A stretch of 64,000 nucleotides of DNA from a virus, in IMG/VR virus record IMGVR_UViG_3300032246_002821, positions 62,001-126,000 of that record; one strand, written 5' to 3'. This document shows, piece after piece, positions 4,399 to 48,803 of the stretch. A program made the translations under genes and the position numbers. The notes beneath the pieces were generated by a model. That model searched no databases. It saw only the letters and a program-made list of their open reading frames with translations, and had not been told where the DNA came from. Within the stretch, counting starts at the first letter, position 1; every line of letters starts with the position of its first letter.

Positions 4399-4405
4399 AA
4401 ATTAT

Positions 4406-4434
4406 AATATACGCTTTTTATTGTTGAAAGTCAA
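4406..4434 (-). promoter_or_regulatory. Sigma70-like promoter for helicase gene
   Basis: Minus strand TTGACT, 17-base spacer, TATATT. It overlaps the stop region of the primase gene and sits just before the gp41 ATG, giving a very short leader. The helicase can therefore be transcribed apart from the primase. Confidence 0.75.
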
Positions 4435-20766: not shown

Positions 20767-20775
20767 TTTACCACC

Positions 20776-23683: not shown

Positions 23684-23684
23684 A

Positions 23685-24908: not shown

Positions 24909-24911
24909 CGA

Positions 24912-25289
24912 TTAGTCTCCTGACATATATGATTTTGTTTCAACGATTTCACTGTTGCATTTCTGATTGATTGTCTTCTTGATCTCAGCCCTGCGAGTGT
25001 TGGCTTTGTAGGTGCTGTTGGCCAGGTCTATGAAACCCTGATCAAAGGTGCCAGTTTTCTGATATTGCCTGGCCAGATCTTCGTTATCCCAGATGATCTT
25101 GTTGACTATCAGCAGCTCTGAAATTTCAGCTGCCAAGTTTATTTCTATATCATAGAATAACTTTTCCAGTTCTGCTTTTTCCTTGGACACGTGTGCAAGT
25201 TTGACCTGATCCGTATATTCGGACTCTTTGATGTCCAGGATGGTTATCTTGTCCACCAGTTCGCCAACACTGATAGGTGCTAGGATCAT
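24912..25289 (-). CDS. DUF6165-like protein
   Basis: 125 residues, helical. 'ILAPISVGELVDKITILDIK' is the signature start of DUF6165, small proteins often encoded inside LPS or capsule gene clusters. The rest is charged helix ('IWDNEDLARQYQKTGTFDQG'). Its start overlaps the GDP-mannose dehydratase stop by 4 bases. Biochemical role unknown; context suggests glycan assembly. Confidence 0.65.
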   Translation of the reverse strand: MILAPISVGELVDKITILDIKESEYTDQVKLAHVSKEKAELEKLFYDIEINLAAEISELLIVNKIIWDNEDLARQYQKTGTFDQGFIDLANSTYKANTRRAEIKKTINQKCNSEIVETKSYMSGD

Positions 25290-26305
25290 CTGGCACTCGC
25301 AATGTCGTAATCTGACTTACACATATCGTTCACCAGGTCCTGAAGTGTGTGTTCCGGTGCCCAACCAAGCACAGTGCGAGCTTTTGTTGCATCGCCCTGG
25401 ATATTGACCACATCCACTGGACGATAAAACTCTGGATTGATACGGATGATCACCTTGCCAGTTTTAGTATCTGTGGCGATCTCATCCACGCCAGTTCCTG
25501 ACCATACCAGGTTCATACCAAAGTATTCACCAGCATACTGGCAAAATTCTCTGATGCTGGTCTGCACACCAGTAGCGATAACATAATCGTCTGCCACAGG
25601 CTGCTGTAACATCTGCCACATGGCTTTCACATAGTCTTTGGCGTGGCCCCAGTCTCTGAGACTGTCCAGGTTGCCCAGTTCCAGATGGCTCTGTTTGCCC
25701 AGTATGATATTGGCCATTGCTTTGGTGATCTTGCGTGTGACAAAAAGTTCGCCGCGGCGTGGGCTTTCGTGATTGAACAGGATGCCGTTGCAACCGAAGA
25801 TCTTGTAGCTTTCACGATAGTTGATGGTGATCCAGTAGGCATACAACTTGGCAGCACTGTAAGGGCTACCAGGATAGAAAGGAGTATCTTCTTTCTGTGG
25901 GTTGTATTTCTGGATACCGAACATTTCGCTGGTGCTGGCCTGATAGAACTTGGTATGGTCTTCCATATGCAATGCACGGATGGCATCTAGGATACGCAAT
26001 GGTCCCAGTGCATTGGTATTACCTGTGAGTTCAGGCATATCGAAGCTGACCTTGACGTGACTCTGTGCTGCCAGGTTATAGATTTCATCGGGCTTGACCT
26101 TGTCGATCAAGTTGCGGATGCTGTTGCTGTCGCCCAGGTCTCCATTATGAAACTCCACATCATTCTTGATGTCGGCGATGTTAACGTGGTCGAAGTTGGC
26201 GCTGCGACGGATCAGGCCGTGTACTTCATAACCTTTGCTCAGCAAAAGTTCTGCAAGGTAACTGCCATCTTGTCCAGCGATGCCTGTGATAAGAGCTTTT
26301 TTCAT
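25286..26305 (-). CDS. gmd: GDP-mannose 4,6-dehydratase
   Basis: 339 residues. NADP-binding GIAGQDGSY (8-16), catalytic set T125/E127 in 'QASTSEMFG' and Y149xxxK153 in 'PYSAAKLYAYW', substrate loop 'NHESPRRGELFVTRKITKA', and 'GNLDSLRDWGHAKDYVKAMW'. It converts GDP-D-mannose to GDP-4-keto-6-deoxy-D-mannose, the entry point to GDP-fucose, rhamnose and perosamine. Length matches the family. First gene of the glycan operon, so the pathway begins with host GDP-mannose. A TATAAT-like element lies upstream, but no clear -35 was found. Confidence 0.95.
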   Translation of the reverse strand: MKKALITGIAGQDGSYLAELLLSKGYEVHGLIRRSANFDHVNIADIKNDVEFHNGDLGDSNSIRNLIDKVKPDEIYNLAAQSHVKVSFDMPELTGNTNALGPLRILDAIRALHMEDHTKFYQASTSEMFGIQKYNPQKEDTPFYPGSPYSAAKLYAYWITINYRESYKIFGCNGILFNHESPRRGELFVTRKITKAMANIILGKQSHLELGNLDSLRDWGHAKDYVKAMWQMLQQPVADDYVIATGVQTSIREFCQYAGEYFGMNLVWSGTGVDEIATDTKTGKVIIRINPEFYRPVDVVNIQGDATKARTVLGWAPEHTLQDLVNDMCKSDYDIASAR

Positions 26306-31187: not shown

Positions 31188-33317
31188 TTAACGTAGGCCT
31201 GCCAACCAGGCTATCTTTTCTATGCTTGACTCTGCCACAGCATCGGCACTTTCAATAGTTGTCATACCAATACCAGGAGGCATTTTTTTGATCACATTGT
31301 CTCGTTCTTTCTTGTCTGCATTGTATGCAGGAGCATTGGGCACGTAGTGTTGATTGCCTTTTCTGTCTGTGTAGCTGTCTTTGACCGCTGGGCTAGTGTC
31401 AGCACCTAGATCTGCCGGACGGCGTGGTGGCAGTGGCACATTGCCAGTCTTGTCTGTGAAAGCTGTGTTGCTGAACATCTTGTTCAAACCTTCACGATCA
31501 GCTTGACTGGGTTGGCTAACAAAGGGATCTGCAATTCTTCTACTCTGATTATCAAAGCTAGCAGGACGATCAGCTTGACTGGGTTGGCTAACAAAGGGAT
31601 CTGCAATTCTTCTACTCTGATTATCAAAGCTAGCAGGACGATCAGATGGACTGGGTTGATCGCTTTCATTCTTCTGGAAGAACTGGCGAGCATCTGGCAT
31701 AGGAGCAGGACCGCTGTCTGGTGACATTTGTGGAATACCACTGTTTGGTGGCATTGGTGGAAGATAGTTTTCCTGATCCGGTGGGCCTTGGATACCGCTC
31801 AATGCTTTGAGTTTGTCTAGCACCTTTGAGTAGTAAGTATCATCAGTACTTTTTGCATATTTTGCGTGAACAGGTCTAATTGGATTATATGTGATGCCGT
31901 ACTGAGTACCCAAGTTAGCGATATCGCTACTTAAACCAGCATTATCTCTGTCCACTTTCGATCCAGGTGCGGCCATCGCCGCGCGATCATATGGAGTGGG
32001 TTCTGCTTCATCCTTGGTGCTGGTGCCACCACTGTCTGGTGCCATATCACCCGGACCTTCTTGAATACCGCTCAGTGTTTTGAGTCTGGCGATATCGTCA
32101 GATACCATTTCTTCACCTGGATGATCATTACTGTCCCACATGGTTTTAGTGCCTGTGCCTTGCAGTGTATAGGGATCAGGATTAATTCGGCCAGGGATAA
32201 CAGGCATATTCAATTCAGGTGCAGATTTTGGAGCAGCAGGTGGGGTAGACATTTTTGGTGCAGGGCCATCAGGTGTCTGCATGAATTTAGGAACATCTGC
32301 TTTGGGCGCATCTCTTCCACCACCCATAGAATATGGGTCCCGTCTGCCTGCCTGTGGTACGGTTGTAGGAGGCGGAGGAGGAGGGGCATCTAGACCACCA
32401 CCCATAGAATATGGGTCCTGTCTGCCTGCCTGTGGTACAGAAACTGGATTACTGGGCGGATTTTTCATCTTGGGAGCAGGTCCATCTGAACTTCCGCCAC
32501 CCCAGTCATAGGGATTAGGCTTGATAGGCGCAATAGGAGCAGTACCAGTTGGTGGTGGAACAGGTTTAGCGCCAGGACCGAAACCAGGAATTGGTTCATT
32601 TATTGTTAATAATGGTTTTTCACGAGGAGGAGTGCCTGGCTCTGGTGCGCCAGGTTGTTTCAATTGGGCAGGGTCTGGTCTGCTCATTTGGTTAGGAGGA
32701 ATATTTGCAGCAGGAGGAGTCATACCTGTTGTGCTGCCAGGACCGAATTGACCGCCAGGTGCGGTTGGACTGGGTGTAGCAGGTGCTGGTGCTGGTTTAG
32801 CAGGTGCGGGTGTTGCTGGTTGTGTTGGCGCAGCAGGACGATAGGCCTGTTGATCAGGATTCAGATTCTTCTGGATCACGTCAGGATCGTTTGCTCCGCC
32901 CTTACGTGCAGTCAAACCTTTTTGTTGGTTCATATACTGGCCCAGTGTGGCATTGGGATTGCCGACTTCTTTTCTAAACTGATCCAATTGATCTTTGGTA
33001 ACAACAGGTGCTTTAGCAGCTGGTGCCGGGGCAGCGGGTGCTGGTTTAGCAGTTTCAGGCCCAGGAGTGCTGAAGAATCTGGTGTTGTCACCAGGCATCT
33101 TGTCGAAACGGCCTTTTTCATCGCCATACAAGCCAGGACCGGCCTGTGATTTAGTGCCCAGTGGAACCACAGGACCGCCATCGCCGGGATCACGATAATA
33201 TTGTCTGCCATCGTCAGCAGGCGCAGCAGACTTTTTAGGTGCTTCTGCGATATTGAATTCGTTCAGCTGTAGACCAGCTAATTTTTTCATTTCGTTCAAA
33301 GGGTCTTTGTTGGCCAT
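31188..33317 (-). CDS. Large Pro/Ala-rich disordered virion-associated protein
   Basis: 709 residues, dominated by Pro, Ala, Gly, Asp and Gln, almost certainly disordered. It carries two perfect copies of a 24-residue repeat (around 31494-31645) and repeated 'DPYSMGGG' units. Short LxxLAG[LI]-type motifs occur at the N-terminus (MKKLAGLQL), twice inside ('TLSGIQ', 'ALSGIQ') and at the very end (IAWLAGLR). A gp21-type [IL]-x-E site, 'FNIAEAPKK', follows residue 20. A late-type octamer precedes it. Together with the next two genes it forms a block of giant low-complexity proteins; a head-internal role is inference. Confidence 0.75.
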   Translation of the reverse strand: MANKDPLNEMKKLAGLQLNEFNIAEAPKKSAAPADDGRQYYRDPGDGGPVVPLGTKSQAGPGLYGDEKGRFDKMPGDNTRFFSTPGPETAKPAPAAPAPAAKAPVVTKDQLDQFRKEVGNPNATLGQYMNQQKGLTARKGGANDPDVIQKNLNPDQQAYRPAAPTQPATPAPAKPAPAPATPSPTAPGGQFGPGSTTGMTPPAANIPPNQMSRPDPAQLKQPGAPEPGTPPREKPLLTINEPIPGFGPGAKPVPPPTGTAPIAPIKPNPYDWGGGSSDGPAPKMKNPPSNPVSVPQAGRQDPYSMGGGLDAPPPPPPTTVPQAGRRDPYSMGGGRDAPKADVPKFMQTPDGPAPKMSTPPAAPKSAPELNMPVIPGRINPDPYTLQGTGTKTMWDSNDHPGEEMVSDDIARLKTLSGIQEGPGDMAPDSGGTSTKDEAEPTPYDRAAMAAPGSKVDRDNAGLSSDIANLGTQYGITYNPIRPVHAKYAKSTDDTYYSKVLDKLKALSGIQGPPDQENYLPPMPPNSGIPQMSPDSGPAPMPDARQFFQKNESDQPSPSDRPASFDNQSRRIADPFVSQPSQADRPASFDNQSRRIADPFVSQPSQADREGLNKMFSNTAFTDKTGNVPLPPRRPADLGADTSPAVKDSYTDRKGNQHYVPNAPAYNADKKERDNVIKKMPPGIGMTTIESADAVAESSIEKIAWLAGLR
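31494..31645. repeat. 72-bp perfect tandem repeat, two copies plus fragment
   Basis: Two adjacent 72-bp units starting at 31494 and 31566, with a short third start. In protein they give 24-residue repeats containing 'DRPASFDNQSRRIADPF'. Near-identity at DNA level indicates recent duplication. Confidence 0.88.
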
Positions 33318-33341: not shown

Positions 33342-36300
33342 TTATTTATTCAATCCGGCTAATCTACGCAGCGTATTGATGCTTTCTGTTGTCTCGCCTG
33401 AGTTTTCCACCGGCTCGCTATTATTGGCAGGTTTGGGCATATTGGTGCTGTTGTTGGCAGAACTGGTACCACTTGCTGGATTGGCTGAACTGGTATCCAC
33501 AGGTTTAGGCGCAGTTATACCAGCTGGTCCAGCAGGTTGGGTAGGAGGTACTGGTGTACCCGCCGCAGTAGTTTTACTGGCATTGGGATCAGTGCTCATA
33601 GGAGCAGGTGTAGCTGGTTTAGGTTGTCCTGCAGGTACGCTCACTGCCACTTGGGCTTTGTCTGATTGCGGAGGTGTAGCTTCCGCCACTCCAGTTTCCT
33701 TGTAGTAAGCACGTTCACGCAATGTTTTGGCCATCTTGCTCAGAGCCTGAAGATCTAAGTTGCGGCTGTCTTCTATGCGACTTTTGGCCCAATCCCTTGT
33801 GCCATAACCTTGTTCTGTATTTTGTGGTTCTGCTAAATCCAGATATTTGTAATCAGGATGGCCTTTGTGTAACCTGCTGCGATAAATGCCAGGTCCCATT
33901 CTCTCCCAGTCTTTGCCCAGTTCACGGACTTTATGGGGAATATCCGCTAATCTATCACCAGAATACATCTCCAGCCATCTGTGATCCACGTCACGACCGC
34001 TTTTGCCAGGACCCTTGCCGTCTCCTCTGCCTGTTCCTTCCCCGCCACCTTGTCCGCCACCAGTGCCTGTGCCCTGTCCTGGACCTCTGCCTGTGCCATC
34101 GCCTTTACCTGCGCCGCCACCACGGCCGCCGCCACCGGGGCTCATATTGTATTCACGTTCACGGGGATCGCCTTTGCCGCCACCAGCTCTGCTAGCACGT
34201 TGTTCAGCACTGCTGCCGAATTCCTTTTGTGCGAATTCCTCGCGGCTGATGCCACTAGTGGGTCCGCCTTTGGTGATATATGGATCAATGATTTTTCTGC
34301 CCTGGTTGTCATAGGTAACAGGTCTGTTATCGTTGGGATCATCGGTAGCCAGCTCGTGACCGTTTTCAGTGTATTTGGGACCGCTTGCTCCAGGCTTGCC
34401 TCTCTGAGGACTAGGCTGAACATCCACACCAGTGGGGGTATTACGCACTGTGCTGCCCTTGGGGCTGGTCATCACACCAGGTTGATCAGCAGGTGCTATG
34501 GCATTGGCATCACCTGTGCCGCCTGGCACTCCGGGTTTACCAAAAGTACCACTGGGAGCAGGTCTGCCGTAACTGGGTGTAGGTGGTGTCTGAGTAGGTT
34601 CTGCTTTAGGCTCAGGTGGTTTTTCCGTAGGTTTATCGAATGTGGTAGTGGGACTTGGCCTTGCATAGCTGGGTGCTTGAGGCTGTGGTTCAGTCTTTGC
34701 TGGTTCTGGTGGTTTCTCAGGTGGCTTTTCCACAGGTTTATTGAAAGTGGTTGTAGGCGCAGGTCTGGCGTAACTGGGTGCCTGGGGCTGTGGTTCAGTC
34801 TTTGCTGGTTCTGGTGGTTTCTCAGGTGGCTTTTCCACAGGTTTATTGAAAGTGGTTGTAGGCGCAGGTCTGGCGTAACTGGGCGCCTGCGGCTTGGGTT
34901 CTGTTTTTTCTGGTTCGGTTTTCTCAGGTTCTGTAGGCGTGACCCGCTGTTGTTCAGGTTCTTTGGCCAAGAGTTCTTTGTACAACTCATCCTGAGTTTT
35001 GGGCTGTGTCTGAGGTTTAGGCGCAGGCTGTGGTTCCAGTTCCTGATCTTGTGCCAATTTATCCATCATATCTTTGAAAGCAGCCAACGCATCAGGCGTG
35101 GGTTTATCGACTGGCTGCTCTGGCTTTACAGTGACTTTTTGCTTTGGTGTGATGATGATAGGATTGTTTTCAGCGCCAGGTCCGCCTTGTCCAGGCAGCT
35201 TGCTGAAATCTTGTTGCGGTTCTTTGTCATCGGCACTGGTAGCATCAGCACTTGTAGCAGGTACTGTACCCGTTGTGCTTGATTGTGTACTGGTGTTACC
35301 AGATCCGCCTTGATCTCTGGGTGCGTGGATTTCTGGATTGTACCTTACTCTGGGATCGTGCTGCTGGGTGTCGGTGCCAGGGGGCAATTCAGGAATAGTT
35401 GTTACTCTCATCGGGGAATCAGGAGGAGGGGGTTCGTATGGTTCTAATTCAGCATCTGGATCAGGATAAATGTGAGGACCTGGCAGGTTAACATCAGGTA
35501 AATTGGGGTCTTTTGCAATACCATAAGGAAGTGGTGGAGTTTTATTTGGGTCGTTCAAACCAGCATTTTTCTTTAAGGCATCCAGTGGATCTGTTTTAAC
35601 TGGTTGTTGACCAGCAGGCTGAGGAACATCTCGTTGATCCATATCTTGTGCTTGCTGTGCTTGCTTTTCGCTAGGATCTATCTTTACTTGCACTCCTGCA
35701 TTTTTCTTGAGTGTGTCCAAGGGATCCTCAGGATCCCATAAAAAAATTTCAAACGGCTCTGTTCTTTTATATTTTACGCTATCAGGCACATTATCTATAT
35801 CTTTTGCTTTGAATGTGTCAACTTTTTTATCAGGATTTGCCTGATTCCACTTTTGCAATTCATTATGGGTATAAGATTCTGGACTAGTGGCAGGGCTCAT
35901 TGGCTGATATTCACCAGGAGGCGGCGCAGGTGACTGAGCCGGAGTACCGCCTACTTCAGATCCTGGCGTTGTGGCTTGTGAAGGACTGGGTGTCTTTTCA
36001 GCTGAACTGGGTCCACCTGTACTGGCGGCACTGTCTGGCGATCCACCGCCACCACCGCCACCGCCTTTTTTAAACACAACCACACCAGTTGGTGCGTTCA
36101 TTGCATAACTGCCACTGGGACTGGTCATCACACCAGGCTGGGATTTCAGTGGTATGGTATCCTGGCTGAATTCATCATCTGGAGTATTTTTTTTTAAATC
36201 GGGAGTAGTAGTACTAGCTGGAGGTTCAGGGTTAGTAATTACTTTGTCCTGATTACTTGCAGGAGGTGTATTAGATGGCGCCTCGGGATCTGGACTGTCA

Positions 36301-37124
36301 TCATTCAAGATACCAGCCAGTCTCTGTAATTCTGTCAGCTTACTGTTGTTTTTTACTGTTGCGCTTTCCTCAGGATTAAACCCACTGCTCTTGTTGAAAA
36401 CATCCAGGGTCTTTTGATCAGGTTTATCAGTCTTACTTTGTGGAGGCAAATCGTTGACATCTCGTTTATCCATAGCTTGAGCTTGAGCTTGAGCTTGATT
36501 ATCTGCAGGCTGCGGTTGCTGTTTTTGAGCAGCAGCTTGTTTTTCATTATAACCATAAACGGTTTTATCGTAGGGTATGGTGGTGATACCAGTATCTGGA
36601 TCAGGTAGAGGATCTTGACCAGGAAATTGAGATAGTGCATCTTTAGCAAGTTGTCCTGCTATAGGTGCAGCTAAAGCACCGTGAAGTGCTGCACTTACTT
36701 TTGCGCCTGGACTCATCAATGGTTTGGCAGGTGTTGCAGGCGCTGGTGGTGGCGGTGCGCTTATAGTATTACCAGGAGGATTGGGTTGGCCTGGAGACCA
36801 AGTGGGTACTTCCTGATAAGGTACAATGTTTTTTGGTGCAGAAACAGCAGATGGTTCTGCACTAGTAGTGCTGCGTGTGGTACGCATACTGGGATCCACC
36901 CGCACTTCAGGCCCGCCAGGACTGGGTCTGCTGGGCATATAACGGCTGGCTGGCACGATAGGTGGTACTTCTGGTCCCACCTTATTTCTACTACCATAAG
37001 GATCAGTTGGGTCGCCAGGACCCGCCTCTGCTATGCTCTGTACTTCGCGCATTTTGGCACGGTTACGCAAGTTGTGTGTGAATTCTTTAAGTGCGTTAAA
37101 GTAGTTTCTTGGATCTTGTGCCAT
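33342..37124 (-). CDS. Giant Pro/Gly/Thr-rich disordered virion-associated protein
   Basis: 1260 residues. The N-terminal 30 residues are helical ('YFNALKEFTHNLRNRAKM') and end in 'QSIAEAGPG', an I-x-E site of the prohead-protease type. Then long Pro/Thr/Lys/Gln-rich stretches, a 35-residue tandem repeat (34681-34890), an eight-Gly run, a Gly-rich basic segment ('GGGGRGGGAGKGDGTG'), and LxxLAG-type motifs ('LQRLAGIL', 'LKKNAGVQ', 'LKKNAGLN') with the protein ending 'TLRRLAGLNK'. An RG/GK-rich part could bind nucleic acid. A GGAAA precedes the ATG; a TATAAA-containing element lies upstream. Function unknown; its place in the virion block and size suggest a head-packaged protein. Confidence 0.75.
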   Translation of the reverse strand: MAQDPRNYFNALKEFTHNLRNRAKMREVQSIAEAGPGDPTDPYGSRNKVGPEVPPIVPASRYMPSRPSPGGPEVRVDPSMRTTRSTTSAEPSAVSAPKNIVPYQEVPTWSPGQPNPPGNTISAPPPPAPATPAKPLMSPGAKVSAALHGALAAPIAGQLAKDALSQFPGQDPLPDPDTGITTIPYDKTVYGYNEKQAAAQKQQPQPADNQAQAQAQAMDKRDVNDLPPQSKTDKPDQKTLDVFNKSSGFNPEESATVKNNSKLTELQRLAGILNDDSPDPEAPSNTPPASNQDKVITNPEPPASTTTPDLKKNTPDDEFSQDTIPLKSQPGVMTSPSGSYAMNAPTGVVVFKKGGGGGGGGSPDSAASTGGPSSAEKTPSPSQATTPGSEVGGTPAQSPAPPPGEYQPMSPATSPESYTHNELQKWNQANPDKKVDTFKAKDIDNVPDSVKYKRTEPFEIFLWDPEDPLDTLKKNAGVQVKIDPSEKQAQQAQDMDQRDVPQPAGQQPVKTDPLDALKKNAGLNDPNKTPPLPYGIAKDPNLPDVNLPGPHIYPDPDAELEPYEPPPPDSPMRVTTIPELPPGTDTQQHDPRVRYNPEIHAPRDQGGSGNTSTQSSTTGTVPATSADATSADDKEPQQDFSKLPGQGGPGAENNPIIITPKQKVTVKPEQPVDKPTPDALAAFKDMMDKLAQDQELEPQPAPKPQTQPKTQDELYKELLAKEPEQQRVTPTEPEKTEPEKTEPKPQAPSYARPAPTTTFNKPVEKPPEKPPEPAKTEPQPQAPSYARPAPTTTFNKPVEKPPEKPPEPAKTEPQPQAPSYARPSPTTTFDKPTEKPPEPKAEPTQTPPTPSYGRPAPSGTFGKPGVPGGTGDANAIAPADQPGVMTSPKGSTVRNTPTGVDVQPSPQRGKPGASGPKYTENGHELATDDPNDNRPVTYDNQGRKIIDPYITKGGPTSGISREEFAQKEFGSSAEQRASRAGGGKGDPREREYNMSPGGGGRGGGAGKGDGTGRGPGQGTGTGGGQGGGEGTGRGDGKGPGKSGRDVDHRWLEMYSGDRLADIPHKVRELGKDWERMGPGIYRSRLHKGHPDYKYLDLAEPQNTEQGYGTRDWAKSRIEDSRNLDLQALSKMAKTLRERAYYKETGVAEATPPQSDKAQVAVSVPAGQPKPATPAPMSTDPNASKTTAAGTPVPPTQPAGPAGITAPKPVDTSSANPASGTSSANNSTNMPKPANNSEPVENSGETTESINTLRRLAGLNK
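33343..33350 (-). promoter_or_regulatory. T4-type late promoter (AATAAATA)
   Basis: Overlaps the stop codon of the 33342-37124 gene and lies 26 bases before the ATG of the 31188-33317 gene. One mismatch from consensus. Confidence 0.6.
34681..34890. repeat. 105-bp tandem repeat inside the giant gene
   Basis: Two adjacent near-identical 105-bp units (34681 and 34786), with degenerate flanking copies. Each encodes 35 residues containing 'SYARPAPTTTFNKPVEKPP'. Confidence 0.8.
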
Positions 37125-37141
37125 TATGATTTCCGTTTATA

Positions 37142-39556
37142 TTACTTAGGTGCGTAAGGTGTTAGCTGGCCTGCCAGTTTCATAAGTTCCAAGATACTTT
37201 CATCCATCTTGTTACCTTCCACTTTGTATGTCTTTCCACCCACTTCGAACTCATCTTTGTGTGCGGCTCTGGCTTTGGCTAGCTCTCCAGAGAATTCATT
37301 GCCTTCGTCTGTGACTTCTTCTTCCACATCTGTTTTCTTGTCGGCAGCGGCTTTCTTCATGCTTTCTTTTCTGTCGCCGTCTTTATCCAGATCGATATAA
37401 TCGGGTTTAGCAGCTTCTTTGATTCCAGCCAGGTTTTTTAAAGTATCCATTGCTTCGTCTGTCTTCTTGTCGCCACGCATCATTGCGAAATCGTCAGCAT
37501 CTATCTTGTCGTTATGGTTTTTATCCAGTTGTTTCTGTTTACCTTTCAGCATATCTTCTTCCATATCGTCCTCTGTGGCCATATGATGTACTTGGCCTTG
37601 TTCGTGACGGCTGGCCATAGTGTCAGTGGCCATAGCCAGATAGTCAGCTGCTTTGGTAATTTTAGCCTGGATCCATTCTGGCAGATTCTCATCGCTAGCC
37701 ATCAGTGCATCCAGTTCTTCAGCAGCACGAGCGATAGTGTGCAACTGTGTCTTGGCCATACCAGCTTCGCCATCATATTCATCGTGGCTGTGTGGCGCGG
37801 CCTGATCATCGTCTGTGCTCATTTCCATACCATCATCAGTGGTCTCATCTTCATCAGCATAGATGTAGTTTTCCTGGATGATGTTACGTATGCTGTATAT
37901 CATACCGTCCAGGTGTTCGCTGATCTGTTCATGTGTCCAAGGAGCAAAACTTTCTTCCATATGTTCTGCATCATATGCTTCTGTTGTTTCTGTGTGATCC
38001 TGTTCGGTTTCTGTCATTCCTGAACCGCTCCAGCACTCATCCATACCGTGTACTGGGCACATCTCACCAGCTTCTGTCATATTGCAACTGGCTTCGTTCA
38101 CAGGTTCTTCACCCATACCCATGATCTGTTCTTCGAATTCGTCTGCAGGACTACGGCTCTTTTTTGCCATTAGTTTACGAGCTTCGGGATTCTGTCTCAC
38201 CTGTTCTGCGTATGCAGGATTGCGTTTGATCTCAGCTAAATCACGCATATACTTCTGCGCCAACATGATAGCCAGCTTCTTATCTCTATTGTATTCATCA
38301 TTGGGACGTTGGCCGAAGGCTTCGCCTTCGCTGCTGACCAGGTCGCCCATCAGTGCAGCAAAGTTGGCTACATCGTCGCCGTCTGATGCGATTGTGCGGT
38401 TTGCCACATCGCCCAGCACAGCACTCAACAGTGCTTTGTTGTCTGTGTAACGACGGCTGATCATCAGGCTGTCCATTGCTGGATCAGCTTTGAGTACCAA
38501 CTGCCAATCGGGGTCCATAATTTTTTGTTCTACAGCGCCTGATGCTTCTGATAGATTTAACATTGCACTTTCCTTTAATCTTTTGTAAGCACCGGCTGCA
38601 CTGCCAATGTAATTGTCCAAATTCTCGTTGTAAGCCTGGGTGGTGAACCAGCCTTTCACTTCTGTGATGTCATCGTCAGATTCAGGCAATAGCTGCACCA
38701 ATGATTCCAGACAGTCTGTGAAATTACGGCTGTTGTTGCTCATACGTAGCAGATTGCCACGGATGCTTTCTTTCATCTGTTGAGCAGCACGGATAACGTG
38801 ACCTGCCTGTTCAGATTCGAATGTCTTGGTGCGTGTTGCGCTGGTAAATCTGCTGAGATTACGCATCTCGTTTACCGCGCGGCTGATGATCTTTCCATTT
38901 GTATCGTAGGGATTGCCACCGCGACCGATGTAATTCGCCATGGCCTTTGCCCCGCTCACACTCTTGAATGGCAGCAGGAATTTCTCACCTGACTCGTTGA
39001 CACAATAGATACGATCCACTTTGAGCAGACGATTGTTGGTGTTCTCCAGCATCTTTTCACTGTGTACAACGTGGATTGTGACATTGTTCACATTACCTTC
39101 GCTGATCTTACCACGGCGTCTCCAGTCCACACGCCCTTCCATGATGCTTTCATTCTTAATCTTTTTCTTTTCTGGATTTAGCTTAATCATATACTGCAAG
39201 TCCTGTCTGCTGAGTGTGTCTTTGGTGATGTCACGTACATCGAAGTTTAACATATGACTCTTGGCCATCCTGCGTAATTCACGCAGGAATCGGTACCAGT
39301 AGGGCTTGTCTTCTGGCAACATACGTTCGGTGATATCAGTGTCGAAAAACACTTTTAAACTGTTGTTATCCACGACACTGCACATGATATGCCCGTAGGG
39401 TCTCAGGCTTTCTTTATCTGTGTATACGAAATTAAAAAATCTGGCTTTATCTGGATCTACAGTGGTGTTGCCATCCTCGTCTCCCATATTGATCTTGGGA
39501 AAGCGATTACGCAGTTTAAAAAATAGATCTTGTGCAGCGTTGCTAATATCAGTCAT
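37142..39556 (-). CDS. Large acidic virion-associated protein with EF-hand-like motifs
   Basis: 804 residues. A folded N-terminal region (1-130, 'KVFFDTDITERMLPEDKPYW') is followed by [IL]-x-E sites ('SIMEGRV', 'KISEGNV', 'NLSEASG'), a helical middle, and a highly acidic C-terminal half. Two calcium-loop-like motifs are visible, 'DKNHNDKIDADD' and 'DLDKDGDRKES', plus a CPVHG...C putative metal site ('GEMCPVHGMDECW'). LxxLAG-type motifs occur late ('TLKNLAGIKE', 'ELMKLAGQL'). A late octamer lies only 5 bases before the ATG. From memory, similar large acidic proteins are found next to gp17 in T4-like marine phages. Exact role unknown. Confidence 0.8.
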   Translation of the reverse strand: MTDISNAAQDLFFKLRNRFPKINMGDEDGNTTVDPDKARFFNFVYTDKESLRPYGHIMCSVVDNNSLKVFFDTDITERMLPEDKPYWYRFLRELRRMAKSHMLNFDVRDITKDTLSRQDLQYMIKLNPEKKKIKNESIMEGRVDWRRRGKISEGNVNNVTIHVVHSEKMLENTNNRLLKVDRIYCVNESGEKFLLPFKSVSGAKAMANYIGRGGNPYDTNGKIISRAVNEMRNLSRFTSATRTKTFESEQAGHVIRAAQQMKESIRGNLLRMSNNSRNFTDCLESLVQLLPESDDDITEVKGWFTTQAYNENLDNYIGSAAGAYKRLKESAMLNLSEASGAVEQKIMDPDWQLVLKADPAMDSLMISRRYTDNKALLSAVLGDVANRTIASDGDDVANFAALMGDLVSSEGEAFGQRPNDEYNRDKKLAIMLAQKYMRDLAEIKRNPAYAEQVRQNPEARKLMAKKSRSPADEFEEQIMGMGEEPVNEASCNMTEAGEMCPVHGMDECWSGSGMTETEQDHTETTEAYDAEHMEESFAPWTHEQISEHLDGMIYSIRNIIQENYIYADEDETTDDGMEMSTDDDQAAPHSHDEYDGEAGMAKTQLHTIARAAEELDALMASDENLPEWIQAKITKAADYLAMATDTMASRHEQGQVHHMATEDDMEEDMLKGKQKQLDKNHNDKIDADDFAMMRGDKKTDEAMDTLKNLAGIKEAAKPDYIDLDKDGDRKESMKKAAADKKTDVEEEVTDEGNEFSGELAKARAAHKDEFEVGGKTYKVEGNKMDESILELMKLAGQLTPYAPK

Positions 39557-39560
39557 ACGG

Positions 39561-39568
39561 TATTTATT
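39561..39568 (-). promoter_or_regulatory. T4-type late promoter (AATAAATA), abutting the start
   Basis: Located 5 bases before the ATG of the 37142-39556 gene and overlapping the terminase stop. The predicted start point falls on the ATG itself, so the transcript would have no leader. Confidence 0.5.
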
Positions 39569-41136
39569 TAGAAGATGACAATCGGCATAGGTGGTATGAT
39601 CTCACTTTTATCCACCTGTAGGCTCTGGCTCAAGCTGGCATCGTATTGTCTCAGATGCAGAATGATACGCACAGCCAACAGTGTAGCACTGACAAGATCG
39701 TCGGTTTCTCCTATTTTTGCCATATAACTGTTGCCGCTAGCAACAAAACTCTTGAGCTCGCTTATGAGGTTCTTGCTGTATATCTTAAGTTTATTTGTTT
39801 CCATCCACAGTTTGAACTTGCTGCAAGCTGCCAATTTGGTGCTGTTCGTAGTTGTGAAACCCTTGCGATATCTTCGTCCTGCTCCCATGGCTTTGGGCTC
39901 GCTGAGGAAGTCACCGGGTATATTTTCTTCTCCTAGATCTGCGATAGCCATCAGTGCCGCCTCGCCTATGGTGTTGTTTTCCACACTGTAATACAAGTTA
40001 GTTGGGTCATTGGTGATTCCCGCGATATATTTGCATATCTCTGACAATATACCTATCTGTTTTTGTATGGGTGTGAGGTTATGTTGCCATTCGGCCACCT
40101 GTTTCATAGTTGTGGCATTGAAAACTTCGATAGCACTGGGATCACCCCCTGTACCCAAGCTGGGATCCAGAGCTACCACGTATACGTTGCCCTTGACTGG
40201 CTTTTCATACCATCTGACCTGGCCCTGTTTCTCGATGGGATCTATTCCCACCATATCTACCAACACACTAGGTGCAATCAGTGTTTCGTCATAGATGATA
40301 AATTTGCAGTTATTCTCACGTTCGAATCTGTCGTCGCCCACGCTGGCTCTTTCTCTGGCTGCCCATTTCTCATCCCGTTCAGGATGTCTGTCCCAGGTCG
40401 CCAGGAAAGCACTAAATCCATTACGTCCTATCTGGGTTGTATTGCCGAATTCGTCGAAACACTTGTTGGCTTCTTTCCATATAGTAGCGAACATATCCTC
40501 ATCACTGTTGGGTGTGCTGGTGATGATGGCCTTACCACCTGTAGATAGTGTAGGGCTGATGGATGTCCAGAATTCTCGAGCGATAGTAGGTCTGACGAAC
40601 GCCAACTCGTCACAGTACAGCAGTGAGATACTCATACCACGTCCGGTTGTTTCGGTAGTGGTAGCTGACACTATACGACTGCTATTGTCGAAACCAATGT
40701 TGCCCTTGTTGTAGTCCACAACACCCGCCCGGATGTGGTCAGGCACGTTTTCATAGGCAAATCTGATACGCTGCATAATTTCCTGTGCGCCGGTGAACTT
40801 GTTGCTGGCCACAAGTATTGTGCTGTCTGGAATAAACATAGCATACCATAACAGATATCCTGATGCAACAGTGGTCTTGCCCATCTGACGACCCAGCATA
40901 TTGATGCTGAAGCGATTGTTATGATAGTTGTTTAACAGTTCTTCCTGATAGTCGTAAGGTTGAAATTGTTGTCTGCCTCTGGTAGGATGCTGGATATAAA
41001 AGAAATTTCTCAGGAAATAATCGCAACCGGTTTCGGGATCAGCACAGAGACTGAATTCCAATAATTCCTGTTCGCTCATCTTAGTGCGCTTATAGGCTTT
41101 TTTTACTAGTACGCCATCTAAACTTTTTTGGGCCAT
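39568..41136 (-). CDS. 17: Terminase large subunit gp17
   Basis: 522 residues from the ATG at 41136 (MAQKSLDGVLVKKAYKRTKM). DNA-packaging motor: Walker A-like GRQMGKT, Walker B 'LLYCDELAFV', coupling motif 'ITSTPNSDED', and a C-terminal RNase H-like nuclease with acidic residues in 'VVALDPSLGTGGDPSA', 'YYSVENNTIGE' and 'KIGETDDLVSATLL'. It translocates DNA into proheads and cuts concatemers. Length is shorter than T4 gp17 (610), in line with marine relatives. A six-residue longer start at 41154 exists; the late octamer at 41142-41149 places the transcript start at 41136. Confidence 0.95.
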   Translation of the reverse strand: MAQKSLDGVLVKKAYKRTKMSEQELLEFSLCADPETGCDYFLRNFFYIQHPTRGRQQFQPYDYQEELLNNYHNNRFSINMLGRQMGKTTVASGYLLWYAMFIPDSTILVASNKFTGAQEIMQRIRFAYENVPDHIRAGVVDYNKGNIGFDNSSRIVSATTTETTGRGMSISLLYCDELAFVRPTIAREFWTSISPTLSTGGKAIITSTPNSDEDMFATIWKEANKCFDEFGNTTQIGRNGFSAFLATWDRHPERDEKWAARERASVGDDRFERENNCKFIIYDETLIAPSVLVDMVGIDPIEKQGQVRWYEKPVKGNVYVVALDPSLGTGGDPSAIEVFNATTMKQVAEWQHNLTPIQKQIGILSEICKYIAGITNDPTNLYYSVENNTIGEAALMAIADLGEENIPGDFLSEPKAMGAGRRYRKGFTTTNSTKLAACSKFKLWMETNKLKIYSKNLISELKSFVASGNSYMAKIGETDDLVSATLLAVRIILHLRQYDASLSQSLQVDKSEIIPPMPIVIF

Positions 41137-41141
41137 AAAGA

Positions 41142-41149
41142 TATTTATT
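41142..41149 (-). promoter_or_regulatory. T4-type late promoter (AATAAATA) abutting gp17 start
   Basis: Ends 5 bases before the 41136 ATG. The predicted transcript start coincides with that ATG. Confidence 0.45.
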
Positions 41150-41209
41150 GACATATATTCAGAGTAAAGTAAAATGATTAAAGTTCAATAACCGTAGTAA
41201 ATAAATGAT

Positions 41210-41719
41210 ATGTCAGACACACTGATTTTGAACGCAAACTATCAACCACTCAGCTGGCTCCCGCTCAGCGTGATCCCGTGGCAACAGGCTATCAAGTTGC
41301 AATTCATGGATAAGATCAAGGTACTGGAATATTACAATGACTGGCAGGTGCACAGTCCCAGCACCACTCTGAATGTGCCAGCGTTGGCTATTACCAAAGA
41401 CTATCATGCTTTCCAGAAAGGTGTTAGGTTCAGTCGTAGCAACCTGTATCTGCGGGATTTATTCCAGTGCCAATATTGTGCCGACACTTACGACTATCAT
41501 GAGTTGAACATCGATCACGTGCAACCATTGAGCAAGGGCGGTAAGACCAATTGGGAAAACTGTGTAACCAGTTGTATTCCTTGCAATAGCAAAAAGAAAA
41601 ACAAGTTTCAAAAACCCATCAGGGAACCATTTAAACCTGATTACTGGACACTGACAGCTAGGCGTAAGAAATTCCAGTATGATCTAAAACATCCCAGCTG
41701 GCGAGATTATATCAATTAA
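41210..41719 (+). CDS. HNH endonuclease
   Basis: 169 residues. HNH nuclease fold with zinc knuckles: 'CQYCADTYDYHELNIDHVQP' gives C-x2-C and the catalytic DH, then 'WENCVTSCIPCNSKKKNKF' gives the Asn and the second C-x2-C. The N-terminal part (1-85) matches a bacterial/phage family of stand-alone HNH proteins starting 'LILNANYQPLSW'. It lies on the opposite strand to its neighbours, beside the terminase genes, where HNH proteins often assist packaging cleavage; a homing role is an alternative. Ends convergently, with a 4-base overlap, on the 41716 gene. Confidence 0.88.
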   Translation: MSDTLILNANYQPLSWLPLSVIPWQQAIKLQFMDKIKVLEYYNDWQVHSPSTTLNVPALAITKDYHAFQKGVRFSRSNLYLRDLFQCQYCADTYDYHELNIDHVQPLSKGGKTNWENCVTSCIPCNSKKKNKFQKPIREPFKPDYWTLTARRKKFQYDLKHPSWRDYIN

Positions 41720-42453
41720 TCTGGATTATTGGGGTCGAAAACTTTGGCTTTATTAAAGGCATTAACCCCTTGCTGTCTACGAGATTCTTCTTCGTCTCTG
41801 GCTCGCTGTCTCAAAAATTCTTCTTCGCCTGTATTGAGATCGGTAGGTTCAAAAACGCTGCCAATAATACCTGGTACACTAGCTAGTCTAGTGCCTTTGA
41901 GTGCTGCGCCTGCTAGACCCTTGGCAATATCACCGCCCAGGTTTTTGAGTTCGTCTTTCATTTCCGGCCAACTCAATGTGCCTGATCTGGGCTGAGTCTT
42001 GGGATTGGGACCTGCGGAAAAATCAGGCGGCAGACTGGGATTATTGAACGTAGGTGTAGAACCGCCTGTGGGTTTGGGTGGCATTTCCAAGTTAGGCGGT
42101 TGTATACGGCCCTGTGGTTTGCTCTGACCCAGATTGGGTGTGTCGCCCAGAGGCGGCAATTTGCTACCAGCTGGTGTTTCAGGAGGTGCGACTGGACCAG
42201 TTGCTGCACGTACACTCATACGGGGTTTTACACCTGCTTCAGGATTGCCAGGCACTGCATTGGCAGTGTCAGCAAAACTACCAGGTATGTCTGGTAATTG
42301 AGGCATGACTTTAACTTGACCAGATACAGGTTGGCTGCCTGCGCCCGCAGGGCTGTATGGTTTTAAATTTGTGTAGTTTTCAGGACTAGGAGCAGACCAG
42401 TCTATGCCAGCTGGACCTTCTGTCAAAAGGGTCATAAATTCTTTAGCTCTCAT
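41716..42453 (-). CDS. Putative internal head protein, Pro-rich, CTS-like N-terminus
   Basis: 245 residues. Starts MRAKEFMTLLTEG, a short amphipathic helix ending in L10-T-E12 before Gly, which matches the T4 capsid-targeting sequence plus prohead-protease cleavage pattern. Residues 20-150 are Pro/Gly/Asn-rich and disordered. A hydrophobic helix ('GGDIAKGLAGAALKGTRLAS') and a charged helix ('EEEFLRQRARDEEESRRQQG') follow. Start overlaps the upstream paralogue by 11 bases. Packaging into the head is inferred from the N-terminus. Confidence 0.68.
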   Translation of the reverse strand: MRAKEFMTLLTEGPAGIDWSAPSPENYTNLKPYSPAGAGSQPVSGQVKVMPQLPDIPGSFADTANAVPGNPEAGVKPRMSVRAATGPVAPPETPAGSKLPPLGDTPNLGQSKPQGRIQPPNLEMPPKPTGGSTPTFNNPSLPPDFSAGPNPKTQPRSGTLSWPEMKDELKNLGGDIAKGLAGAALKGTRLASVPGIIGSVFEPTDLNTGEEEFLRQRARDEEESRRQQGVNAFNKAKVFDPNNPD

Positions 42454-42886
42454 CAGTATCTAGTCCTTTTGTTTTATTAATTGCAGGCACTTCTGTATTA
42501 CTTTGGCTGGGACGCTTAGTAGGTACAAATTTAGCCACTGGGCTCACTTTGTTTGTGTTGCCATCTTCGTCTCTCAAATGTTTAGTATGTGCTTTGACCG
42601 CAGCCTGGCCTGTGACTTTGCTCGCACCCTGCATTATATCTATATCGGCCTGTTCATAGGGTATGATGATCAGCTTGTCGGCCAGTTGGCTCTGTTGATC
42701 GAAACCTTCGGGTTGTGGATCAGGGCTACGTGCCATCATTATGCCATAACGATACATTGTATAAAAGTTTTGGCTGGCATCAGGAACGATATAAGCATTG
42801 GGCACAGTACGAGATTCGTGTTCAGGATGATCGCTCATCAATTCCTGTTGGCTGTATTGTTCACTGATAAATTCTTTTGCTCTCAT
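42443..42886 (-). CDS. Putative internal head protein, paralogue family member
   Basis: 147 residues. N-terminus MRAKEFISEQ with I7-S-E9. The middle 'NFYTMYRYGIMMARSPDPQP' and 'EQADIDIMQGASKVTGQAAV' align by eye with the next two upstream proteins, and the C-terminal part holds 'NTNKVSPVAKFVPTKR', the shared basic SPV block. Overlaps the upstream gene by 4 bases. A family of such small proteins is known, from memory, in marine T4-like phages without assigned function. Confidence 0.72.
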   Translation of the reverse strand: MRAKEFISEQYSQQELMSDHPEHESRTVPNAYIVPDASQNFYTMYRYGIMMARSPDPQPEGFDQQSQLADKLIIIPYEQADIDIMQGASKVTGQAAVKAHTKHLRDEDGNTNKVSPVAKFVPTKRPSQSNTEVPAINKTKGLDTDES

Positions 42887-43272
42887 CTGCCACGATTCCT
42901 TTTGGCACCGCTGTTGAATGGCACAGGGCTGGTCTTATTAGTATTACTCAATTCTTCGCTGCGGTTGCTGCTAAGTTTTTTCACAGGTCCAGCACCCACC
43001 ATCTTGGCAGCAGCATTGATGATATCTATCTCGGCGTCTGTGTAGGTGCTCAATAGTGGATCACCACTAAATGCACCAGCTGCTTTTGTGGGATAATCAG
43101 GAGCACCAGCCATAGCCAATCCGAAACGATATTGCAGATAGCTGCTGCCATTGCTCTTGTTCATGCTGATAGCAGGCATACTCACTGCGCCTTTGATGGC
43201 AGCACTTACATCATCAGGAGCATCTGATAGGTCTGCACCAGGCACATCTTCAAACAGTTCAAAAAGTTTCAT
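42883..43272 (-). CDS. Putative internal head protein, paralogue family member
   Basis: 129 residues. N-terminus MKLFELFED with L6-F-E8. The middle 'SSYLQYRFGLAMAGAPDYPT' and 'YTDAEIDIINAAAKMVGAG' and the C-terminal 'NTNKTSPVPFNSGAKRNRGR' match the 42443 and 43269 proteins. The basic end could bind DNA in the head. ATGA coupling with its neighbour. Confidence 0.72.
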   Translation of the reverse strand: MKLFELFEDVPGADLSDAPDDVSAAIKGAVSMPAISMNKSNGSSYLQYRFGLAMAGAPDYPTKAAGAFSGDPLLSTYTDAEIDIINAAAKMVGAGPVKKLSSNRSEELSNTNKTSPVPFNSGAKRNRGR

Positions 43273-43625
43273 TTTTTCTTCCTTTTGCCACTGTTGTGCG
43301 GCACAGGACTGACTTTATGTACACTGTCCGGCTCTTTGCCTTTTTCTTTGGTGAGCCATTTGGTTTTATGTCCCAATCCCTTGAGGCTGTCCTTCAACAT
43401 TTTATGTTCTTCATCAGTGTAAACACTGGCAAAGGGATGATCTCTGAAGTGATCGTGATCGTGAGGTGCTTTATGATGGGGATGAGCTGCTACTACATTC
43501 ATGAAACGATAGTAGTTGTAGCCAGGATCCATATCAGGAAAAACCATACTGCGAGGCATAGTGCTCACGTGCTCTGGATGAGCCTTGGATTTTTTTGCTT
43601 CTGATATGAATTCGCTGGCTCTCAT
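43269..43625 (-). CDS. Putative internal head protein, His-rich paralogue
   Basis: 118 residues. N-terminus MRASEFISEA with I7-S-E9 before Ala. 'MDPGYNYYRFMNVVAAHPHH' and 'YTDEEHKMLKDSLKGLGHKT' match the two paralogues downstream; a His/Asp cluster ('HHKAPHDHDHFRDHP') may bind metal. The C-terminus is the SPV block plus 'HNSGKRKKK'. Confidence 0.72.
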   Translation of the reverse strand: MRASEFISEAKKSKAHPEHVSTMPRSMVFPDMDPGYNYYRFMNVVAAHPHHKAPHDHDHFRDHPFASVYTDEEHKMLKDSLKGLGHKTKWLTKEKGKEPDSVHKVSPVPHNSGKRKKK

Positions 43626-43627
43626 TT

Positions 43628-44224
43628 TTAGCCCCAGGTTTTTACTGGTAGACTCCAGTGATTAGCAAGTGCCTGTTTGACACTGCAATCATAAGATTCT
43701 AAGAACATCCTGGGACGTTCTGGAGTGGTCTTGGTGAAGTGACATTCGAATGTCACACGAGCCTGTTCATTTGCTGGATTACGTGCAAAAACTGTCACTT
43801 CTGATTCAGGTAGCTGGTCTGTCTCTACCAATCTGGCTTCTGCTTTTTTCAGCTTATAACCTTCAGCTGCCATCTGTTCGTGTACACTGTTGCTCTTGGC
43901 GATATTGCGTACGAAGTCGGCAGTGATACCAGCTGCTTCCATAGGAGGCTGATGCATGAATTTCTTGTGTACTTTTTCTGACCCGCGATGGAATTCCAAC
44001 ACGAATTCTGCCATTTTTTGAGTGTTGCCTTCGCTCAAAAACTGCATCTGATCCATATATTTCCAAGCGTTTTCATCCAACAATACAGTCACGCTGTCTT
44101 GTGTATGTTCTACCACAGTGCTGGCGATAAGATGTATCTTGTTGATCTCAAAGTTTACAACATCACCAGTCACTGGTGCTACGCTAGCTCTGTAAGTTTG
44201 GTTAAAGTAATCTTTGAAACTCAT
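43628..44224 (-). CDS. Conserved virion-block protein, unknown function
   Basis: 198 residues from the ATG at 44224, chosen because GAGGA lies six bases upstream. Starts MSFKDYFNQTYRASVAPVTG, similar in shape to the neighbouring targeting-like N-termini but without an [IL]-x-E site. A beta-rich N-terminal half is followed by 'MEAAGITADFVRNIAKSNSV' and a C-terminal beta domain. Function unknown. Confidence 0.7.
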   Translation of the reverse strand: MSFKDYFNQTYRASVAPVTGDVVNFEINKIHLIASTVVEHTQDSVTVLLDENAWKYMDQMQFLSEGNTQKMAEFVLEFHRGSEKVHKKFMHQPPMEAAGITADFVRNIAKSNSVHEQMAAEGYKLKKAEARLVETDQLPESEVTVFARNPANEQARVTFECHFTKTTPERPRMFLESYDCSVKQALANHWSLPVKTWG

Positions 44225-44233
44225 CGTCATTCC

Positions 44234-44803
44234 TCAATCAAATGTCACTGCTACGTGTACTGGGTTATCACCACCGGCCACTTTAGGAGCAGTGAGTTTG
44301 CTTTTAGCCAAGTCATTGCCATTGGGCACAGCAGCACTGATGCCTTTCTCATATTCGTGTGGACTATTGCTGTATGGTCTATCATCGCTTGCCTCGGCAG
44401 CTACAACAGTTTCTTCATCTGGCATTCCACCTGGACTGGGCATCGCACCAGGAATGTCACCAGGAGGTGTCATTGGCAATCCAGCACCAGGTGCAGCTAT
44501 AGTTGGTTTACTGACAGGATGTGGGATGCCCATATGGTGACCAACATCCATTGGCACACCAGGCGCTGCTGCAAGGGCCATATTGTCTTGTGGACCGGCA
44601 TTGAAGTCTATGACTTCTTCTGCATTTATCATACCAGCCAATTTAAGGATCTGAGCAAGCACAGCATCGCTACCAGTTGTTGTAACCTGCACGCCTTCTG
44701 ACACTGGACCATTCATACGCTGTAAGCTGTCTATAGCACGGCCTGCTTCTGGGTTATTATCTGCTATCTCTCGCAGTTTTTTCATTACATCAATCATTTG
44801 CAT
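44234..44803 (-). CDS. Virion-block protein, Pro/Gly-rich, unknown function
   Basis: 189 residues. Helical N-terminus ('MKKLREIADNNPEAGRAIDS'), then 'QILKLAGMINAEEV', another copy of the LxLAG-type motif seen in the giant proteins, followed by a Pro/Gly/Met-rich disordered half. Its start overlaps the stop of the upstream gene by one base. Function unknown. Confidence 0.68.
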   Translation of the reverse strand: MQMIDVMKKLREIADNNPEAGRAIDSLQRMNGPVSEGVQVTTTGSDAVLAQILKLAGMINAEEVIDFNAGPQDNMALAAAPGVPMDVGHHMGIPHPVSKPTIAAPGAGLPMTPPGDIPGAMPSPGGMPDEETVVAAEASDDRPYSNSPHEYEKGISAAVPNGNDLAKSKLTAPKVAGGDNPVHVAVTFD

Positions 44804-45369
44804 TATTTGGATCTCCGTGCCATCAGCGGCGGCAATTTGTTCTTCTTTGTTCCCACTGGGCTGGTGTTGCCTTGTGGTAGATCATTGCTTGTTTTGGCTG
44901 CTTTGGTTTTAGGCGCAGCAAAGGGATGATCTATGGTTTTTTCTTTAAGGGCATTGGCCAGATCTGCAAGTAATTGTGGTGCTTTGCTAGCTGGGTACTC
45001 GCTGGTAAGCACAGGCTGCTCGTTAGGTACTATGGGAGCAGCTAAAACTTCCTGTTGTGGTGTCAGCACAAGTATGTGGCTGAGTGGTATCTCAGTTGCT
45101 TCGTGTACTGCTGCCTGTACTTCTGCAGGAGTGCAGGGATAATTCACCACGATGTCCACGATACTGATGGGAGTATTTCTCAAATGTGCAAAGCCAGGTT
45201 GTACTTCTGCGATAGGAAGTGTCTTGGGTTCACTGATAGCTTCCATATTCCATTTGGCAAGGGTGCGTTTTAGAGCTTCCATATGGTCGCTGTCTACATC
45301 GGTAGCGAATTTTACACGGAATCCGTATTTCTTTTCGCTTTCAAATAGATAATCTTTATAGGTCTTCAT
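44803..45369 (-). CDS. Putative internal head protein with T4 IPIII-like N-terminus
   Basis: 188 residues. N-terminus MKTYKDYLFES is nearly the same, position by position, as the T4 IPIII targeting peptide recalled as MKTYQEFIAEA, with an [IL]-x-E at residues 8-10. A folded ferredoxin-like region follows ('YGFRVKFATDVDSDHMEALK', 'VDIVVNYPCTPAEVQAAVHE'), then a Pro/Ala/Lys tail with 'QGNTSPVGTKKNK', the SPV block shared with the small paralogues. A late octamer and AGAGG stand upstream. Confidence 0.72.
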   Translation of the reverse strand: MKTYKDYLFESEKKYGFRVKFATDVDSDHMEALKRTLAKWNMEAISEPKTLPIAEVQPGFAHLRNTPISIVDIVVNYPCTPAEVQAAVHEATEIPLSHILVLTPQQEVLAAPIVPNEQPVLTSEYPASKAPQLLADLANALKEKTIDHPFAAPKTKAAKTSNDLPQGNTSPVGTKKNKLPPLMARRSK

Positions 45370-48795: not shown

Positions 48796-48803
48796 TATTT
48801 ATA
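48796..48803 (-). promoter_or_regulatory. T4-type late promoter for tail tube
   Basis: Exact TATAAATA on the minus strand, 19 bases before the gp19 ATG, with GGAG in the predicted leader. Confidence 0.82.

Follow-up and report, generated by a model that had tools for sequence, protein, structure and literature searches.

A cassette of small genes, W1 to W7, on the minus strand of a 64,000-nucleotide stretch of viral DNA (the window; positions 62001-126000 of the 182,953 bp IMG/VR record IMGVR_UViG_3300032246_002821) probably encodes internal head proteins. On this reading, short leaders target the cargo to the capsid, where it is packaged and trimmed and from where it is probably ejected. In the mechanism we propose, the leader, either M[RK]A-x-E-F-[IVL]-x-E or a T4-like peptide of ten residues (MKTFxxYLxE), would act as a capsid-targeting sequence (CTS) leading into the prohead core, and a prohead protease of family S77 (gp21-type) would cut after the leader Glu. 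The mature protein would remain in the head with the DNA and enter the cell at infection. The tag is a swappable module, and the cassette between the gp282-like gene (W7, named after gp282 of phage PA5oct) and the terminase gene gains and loses cargo genes.

These steps are not equally probable. Targeting into the head by the leader is very probable, and cleavage by the protease is likely, as judged from the sequence motif. Ejection of the cargo into the host is favoured on balance. W1-W4 might be directed against host defences, a possibility which we consider rather unlikely. It is established that the leader exists and is portable, that within the loci examined it is limited to a few gene families, and that in relatives T4-type head genes accompany it.

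The leaders and their T4 counterparts

The five open reading frames (ORFs) for which the original prediction had claimed leaders were all present where it had placed them, on the minus strand (Table 1). W2, W4 and W7 directly match the short [LI]xE leader with hydrophobic or aromatic targeting positions, and W1 and W3 match it as variants. After removal of the leaders the bodies of W2, W3 and W4 cluster together, which bears out the claim that these are three clear paralogues. The W3-like protein of the relative L230 was matched by W2 (E=1.4e-7) as well as by W4 (E=8e-12). No convincing PHROG or Pfam match was obtained for W1-W4.

The start of T4 IPIII given in the original prediction was correct: in NC_000866 both IPII and IPIII begin with MKTYQEFIAE. 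The leader core EFIxE is identical to that of these two proteins. The W7 leader retains the aromatic residues 4 and 7, Leu 8 and Glu 10, and W1 resembles the type of T4 IPI, which starts with MKTFKEFTSTTTPVSTITE in NC_000866. The first ten residues of T4 IPIII are enough for packaging; CTS residues 4 and 7 mainly govern targeting and residues 8 and 10 processing, gp21 cleaves after [LI]xE, and Asp at position 10 blocks cutting with targeting kept (PMC9026906). In the W7 family, whose members were collected with a body profile, E is the last leader residue in 28 of 40 and D in 7 of 40, giving an acidic residue in 35 of 40. By the T4 rule the D-ending leaders would be targeted yet uncut.

In the T-even phage MX01 the proteins IpII, IpIII, Ip7 and Ip9 all start with MKTY[QK]EFI[ATN]E and have different bodies. 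Homology of the mature part is not required among T-even internal proteins, whose bodies differ. With the internal proteins of T4 and T-even phages (IPI, IPII, IPIII and Alt; Ip7 and Ip9) the locus shares the short amphipathic [LI]xE leader on unrelated bodies and the T4-type head genes and S77 protease found in relatives; there is also a weak fold match between W7 and Ip7. It differs from them in several respects: the window-type consensus MRAxEF[IVL]xE is one residue shorter with Arg-Ala conserved, the bodies of W1-W4 are unrelated to T4 internal proteins, the cassette adjoins the terminase gene and not the ipII/ipIII or ipI sites, and a wide set of probable enzymes occurs as cargo, as does a shared C-terminal SPV tail. 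We judge the system to be a T4-type internal-protein plan with its own consensus and broad cargo.

The ejection proteins of phiKZ-like phages (e.g. SPN3US) are comparable in having a propeptide, maturation by a prohead protease and many packaged and ejected proteins; however, the propeptides cited are ~110-130 residues long with an AxE motif (PMC7411985), whereas the leaders found here comprise 8-12 residues and end in [ILV]xE.

The locus had been regarded as undescribed. In agreement with this, a tblastn search of 50,697 phage records did not find the paralogue family, within the sensitivity of that program, and PHROGs does not contain it either. In the collection of papers searched, MRAREFI, MRAKEFI, MRASEFI, MRAQEFI and MRANEFI did not occur.

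Frequency of the leader and controls

A set of 80 loci was gathered by terminase alone, blind to the leader. A body-only profile found 73 distinct members of the paralogue family in these terminase-anchored loci, 65 of them with the strict leader; the other eight mostly carried a related one (e.g. MKIKDVIVE, MRFKEIIES). Elsewhere in the loci 16 of 573 ORFs matched the leader, and all 16 belonged to the same families, located further upstream; of the ~560 unrelated ORFs none had the leader. In these loci the leader was confined to the cassette families, and shuffled N-termini matched it in 7 of 16,860 cases. Within the alignment of all paralogue bodies no stretch was conserved enough for a scan of the collection, and a closer subset was used instead. 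Paralogue relatives obtained with a body-only query carried MRxxEF..E in 66 of 80 loci and VRAxEF..E with a GTG start in 13, a total of 79 of 80 with the leader; one was cut by the contig end.

Additionally, W2-W4 and W7, two otherwise unrelated families, have a C-terminal tail in common, which consists of [NDHT], a spacer of one or two residues, SPV and then basic residues (SPV tail). This tail was present in 85 of the 996 distinct ORFs of the terminase-anchored loci, and 84 of these 85 lay within the families of W2-W4 and W7.

IMG/VR was scanned at the DNA level for start codons that open MRAxEFhxE. This pattern was found in at least 120 stretches, compared to 8 in the whole collection for a control with E and F swapped. 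Among the matches listed, 123 of 126 opened a frame 55 codons long or longer, and in 110 of 126 the upstream stop was no more than 30 codons away; the corresponding values for the swapped control were 2/8 and 1/8. When 15 genomes were scanned with a looser pattern, 11 records contained a total of 25 matches (reversed pattern: 0), and even though this pattern did not require the Ala, 24 of the 25 still read MRA. The cultured phages among these 15 genomes, PA5oct, Atu_ph07 and T4, had no match to the looser pattern.

A shared start could also stem from a signal in translation or RNA, from a scar left by recombination or from mere chance instead of protein sorting, and its location at the very start of genes would suit such an origin. 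However, the synonymous codon usage of the leader is varied and its residues are constant, so that selection acts on the leader peptide. This conservation at the amino-acid level, together with the swapped (8 vs at least 120 stretches) and reversed (0 vs 25) controls, contradicts chance or a DNA-level origin of the leader and leaves the explanation as a whole with a negligible likelihood.

It had been proposed to look for the leader in other genes of the same genome, and three more were indeed found outside the cassette. They start with MRVEEIISE (record positions ~4361-4681), MRAKEFISE (4678-5295; a proline-rich protein related to L016) and MRVLELFES (126486-127865; 459 aa, with weak tblastn relatives in Atu_ph07 and C48C1). 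The last of these proteins contains an ISVKSL stretch that is PD-(D/E)xK-like by eye.

Portability of the leader and variety of its cargo

Among the matches listed, 114 leader proteins remained after removal of probable internal starts and formed 29 clusters by body alone. Proteins with a DUF6267 body have no leader in the cyanophages Syn1, S-PM2 and P-TIM40, the T4-type leader MLDFKNFITE in C48C1 and MRAQEFLFE in L027; the tag is therefore swappable. W3 and its orthologue in L230 are 74% identical from residue 24 on and differ in their starts (MKLFELFE vs MRANEFIAE). Furthermore, L230, whose terminase is 95% identical, is without W1 and W4, which indicates a fast turnover of cargo.

Hundreds of uncultured freshwater phages carry the same predicted tag on a large number of unrelated proteins, which include probable enzymes. 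A GNAT acetyltransferase with leader is present in the cassette of G002, a 338-kb relative with a 76% identical terminase (L247:8935-9432; PF00583 barely above the cut-off). Other leader-bearing proteins include a T7 0.7-like kinase (L019; phrog_15752, 1.6e-4) and a ParB-like nuclease (L088; phrog_620, 2.6e-7). By their sequences these three are like known takeover proteins. HExxH metalloprotease-like (L026, L318) and ADP-ribosyltransferase-like proteins (L017, L125, L089) were found as well; these labels refer to motifs seen by eye only, since sequence searches of the PDB with the leader-bearing probable enzymes gave nothing useful. The leader also occurs on apparent relatives of PA5oct gp279, which is annotated as detected by mass spectrometry (MS). 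The record of the window itself has a homologue of gp279 (annotated ESI-MS/MS, electrospray ionisation tandem MS) at 2010-2852 (L131), which starts with MKILELWTNFYRLDE; it has a GTRWCT motif in common with the leader-bearing L098 and L106.

Alternatively, the cassette proteins could be components of the prohead core or its assembly, which would carry the same leader, be cut and then be largely lost or used in assembly like T4 gp67 and gp68 and would not be injected effectors. The paralogue and W7 families indeed occupy a fixed place in most relatives, the paralogues are small proteins for which neither an enzyme signature nor a fold match in the PDB was found, and T4 IPIII itself influences head assembly (PMC9026906). 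The SPV tail of both families also resembles, by eye, the C-terminal end of the PA5oct core-type protein gp332. However, the leader is carried by probable enzymes as well, which are implausible as scaffold, the cassette content varies between phages with 95% identical terminases, and the PA5oct homologue of W7 is annotated as found in the virion. We therefore regard a core role as unlikely, if worth serious attention, and prefer internal head proteins as the explanation.

Head genes and prohead protease

A head cluster of T4 type is present in G002 (S77 protease 1e-25, gp23 7e-98, gp20 1e-106). The N-termini of gp23 in leader-bearing phages show LxE near the expected boundary, followed by SA, NA or similar, in all 8 of 8 readable loci. 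The reading of the leaders as T4-type capsid-targeting sequences on a locus of head-packaged proteins, as originally proposed, finds strong support in their portability across unrelated proteins, in the EFIxE core in common with T4, in relatives with gp21, gp23 and gp20 and in the MS annotation of the W7 homologue.

In a census restricted to leader-bearing contigs, 10 of 18 encode S77, among them 7 of the 8 larger than 140 kb; PA5oct and Atu_ph07 encode it as well. This speaks in favour of internal head proteins, within the limits of a census of this kind.

Several observations weigh against internal head proteins. The window's own record had no S77, gp23 or gp20 match with the profiles PF03420, PF07068 and PF07230, and local tblastn of PA5oct head genes against nearly the whole record gave no match. 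Because the capsid (gp23) and portal (gp20) genes are missing too, the record is a fragment, and the missing gp21-type protease is therefore uninformative for the window phage.

Further points of this kind concern the proteins themselves. W1-W3 are not basic (isoelectric points 5.7, 5.3 and 6.2; W4 9.6, W7 8.6), unlike typical T4 internal proteins, for which a basic mature part is typical but not defining. The leader Glu of W5 is gone in the clade of the window; in other clades this family starts with MKSLKEYIAE or MMKTLRDYFAE. PA5oct gp282, the homologue of W7 (E=5e-7), is annotated as 'structural protein, ESI-MS/MS', and its start MKSFRDYYDA is without a cleavage motif. The best function-like named match of W7 among viral models in Foldseek was MX01 Ip7 (E=1.4e-4, with better matches to uncharacterised phage proteins), a fold match that is weak (TM 0.25/0.38) and for which the leader is partly responsible. 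Regarding function, the paralogue family is widespread and conserved, and a general role in the head would explain this no less well than anti-defence. PADLOC, a resource for defence systems but not for their inhibitors, gave no match among the leader-bearing proteins, and Pfam and PHROGs gave none supporting a known anti-defence inhibitor.

The W7 model (predicted local distance difference test, pLDDT, 76) consists of a leader helix (residues 4-10), a ferredoxin-like domain (~15-102) and a disordered tail. A W7 profile ranked Ip7 above the other MX01 internal proteins with a weak score to which the leader contributes, and the sole PHROG match, which covers residues 1-42 (E=0.02), was to a family annotated as 'internal head protein'. 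The W3 family was modelled as a small helical protein (pLDDT 77) with no PDB match.

A different motif was seen in gp22-like scaffold proteins of leader-bearing phages (L141-L149; PA5oct gp330), which in every complete case read have LAG[LI] at their end, usually as RRLAGL[K]. The same motif was also present in three large virion-type proteins of the window at 31188-33317, 33342-37124 and 37142-39556, mostly near their ends, and occurred 5 times in the ORFs of the genome compared to 0.65 expected from shuffles. It may be a second prohead-sorting motif.

Wider reading

MRAxEF[IVL]xE could quite possibly, although we propose this tentatively, be a general cargo-sorting signal of a large, mostly uncultured T4-related lineage. 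Its phages would then load into the head, and inject at infection, dozens of proteins that are unrelated to one another: a kinase, an acetyltransferase, nucleases, probable metalloproteases and ADP-ribosyltransferase-like proteins. The most conserved cargo would have SPV at its C-terminus as a second sorting tail, and other virion proteins would have LAGL as a scaffold-like motif. Phage-injected proteins are normally identified by virion proteomics only. If the proposal is true, a leader scan would list injected effectors straight from sequence: with a strict, portable consensus they could be searched for by sequence, also in uncultured phages and among proteins without assigned function. Such a scan would supply many candidates for virion-delivered effectors and show where to seek anti-defence or host-takeover proteins of a new kind. 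The leader would also be a new packaging tag, which may serve for cargo loading outside T4.

Organization of the locus

On the minus strand, in the order of transcription and starting at 52 kb, the window contains a tail sheath gene (PF17482), a T4 gp19-like tail tube gene (weak match) and a gene for a second tube-like protein. These are followed by a TnsA-like protein, the cassette, the terminase, large virion-type proteins, an SSB-like protein and RecA/UvsX. The nearest cultured phages by terminase are PA5oct, Paride and their relatives (54% identity), with identical gene order. The PA5oct-type phages (Arenbergviridae, Wroclawvirus) have the order sheath-tube-tube-gp285-gp284-gp283-gp282-...-terminase and the MS-annotated W7 homologue in common with the window, but they carry a single gp281 of 498 aa in place of the leader cassette, their gp282 is without the cleavage motif and PA5oct has no match to the leader pattern.

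The N-terminal helix could be an uncut docking peptide for the neck or portal vertex, which would make the proteins minor structural components where head and tail join, with their genes placed among those for tail and neck. The neighbouring tube, sheath and TnsA-like genes would fit, the latter being a homologue of PA5oct gp284, annotated 'head closure', and so would PA5oct gp282 without its cleavage motif. Yet no tail or neck gene carries the leader, which is found on many unrelated bodies and also far from tail genes, and an acidic residue stands at the cleavage site in most W7 homologues. Docking is thus improbable compared to packaging as internal head proteins.

The cassette had been described as adjoining the terminase gene. 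Both do belong to the same locus, but an HNH endonuclease gene on the opposite strand intervenes. It occupies the same spot in most relatives listed and is possibly a homing element.

Table 1. Features of the cassette and its surroundings (window coordinates).
Feature	Position	Strand	Basis
Terminase large subunit, locus anchor	39568..41154	-	54% identity to PA5oct/Paride terminase
HNH endonuclease gene, between cassette and terminase	41210..41719	+	PF14279 3e-14
W1, 245 aa, proline-rich	41716..42453	-	ORF; no homologue in seven relatives tested
W1 leader MRAKEFMTLLTE	42418..42453	-	IPI-like: MRAKEF, then later LTE
W2, 147 aa, paralogue family	42443..42886	-	ORF; body clustering
W2 leader MRAKEFISE	42860..42886	-	ORF start
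W3, 129 aa, paralogue family	42883..43272	-	ORF; body clustering; model
W3 leader MKLFELFE	43249..43272	-	ORF start
W4, 118 aa, paralogue family, basic (isoelectric point 9.6)	43269..43625	-	ORF; body clustering
W4 leader MRASEFISE	43599..43625	-	ORF start
W5, 200 aa, start MTMSFKDYFNQ, leader-like without Glu	43628..44230	-	ORF and relatives
W6, 189 aa, acidic, start MQMIDVMKKLREIA, without [IL]xE leader	44234..44803	-	Kept at same position in relatives
W7, 188 aa, PA5oct gp282 homologue	44803..45369	-	Homology E=5e-7; model; Foldseek
W7 leader MKTYKDYLFE	45340..45369	-	Position-by-position alignment with T4 IPIII MKTYQEFIAE
W7 C-terminal tail with TSPV and basic residues	44806..44895	-	SPV tail motif common to W2-W4

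From its position, the cassette would be expressed late. The T4 late-promoter consensus TATAAATA is located at ~48796-48803 (minus strand), ~26 bases ahead of a tube gene, in an operon that runs into the cassette; three octamers of this type occur in the window, which is about the chance expectation. Further away, at 17256-26305, the window contains a block of genes that by eye are nucleotide-sugar epimerase/dehydratase- and glycosyltransferase-like.

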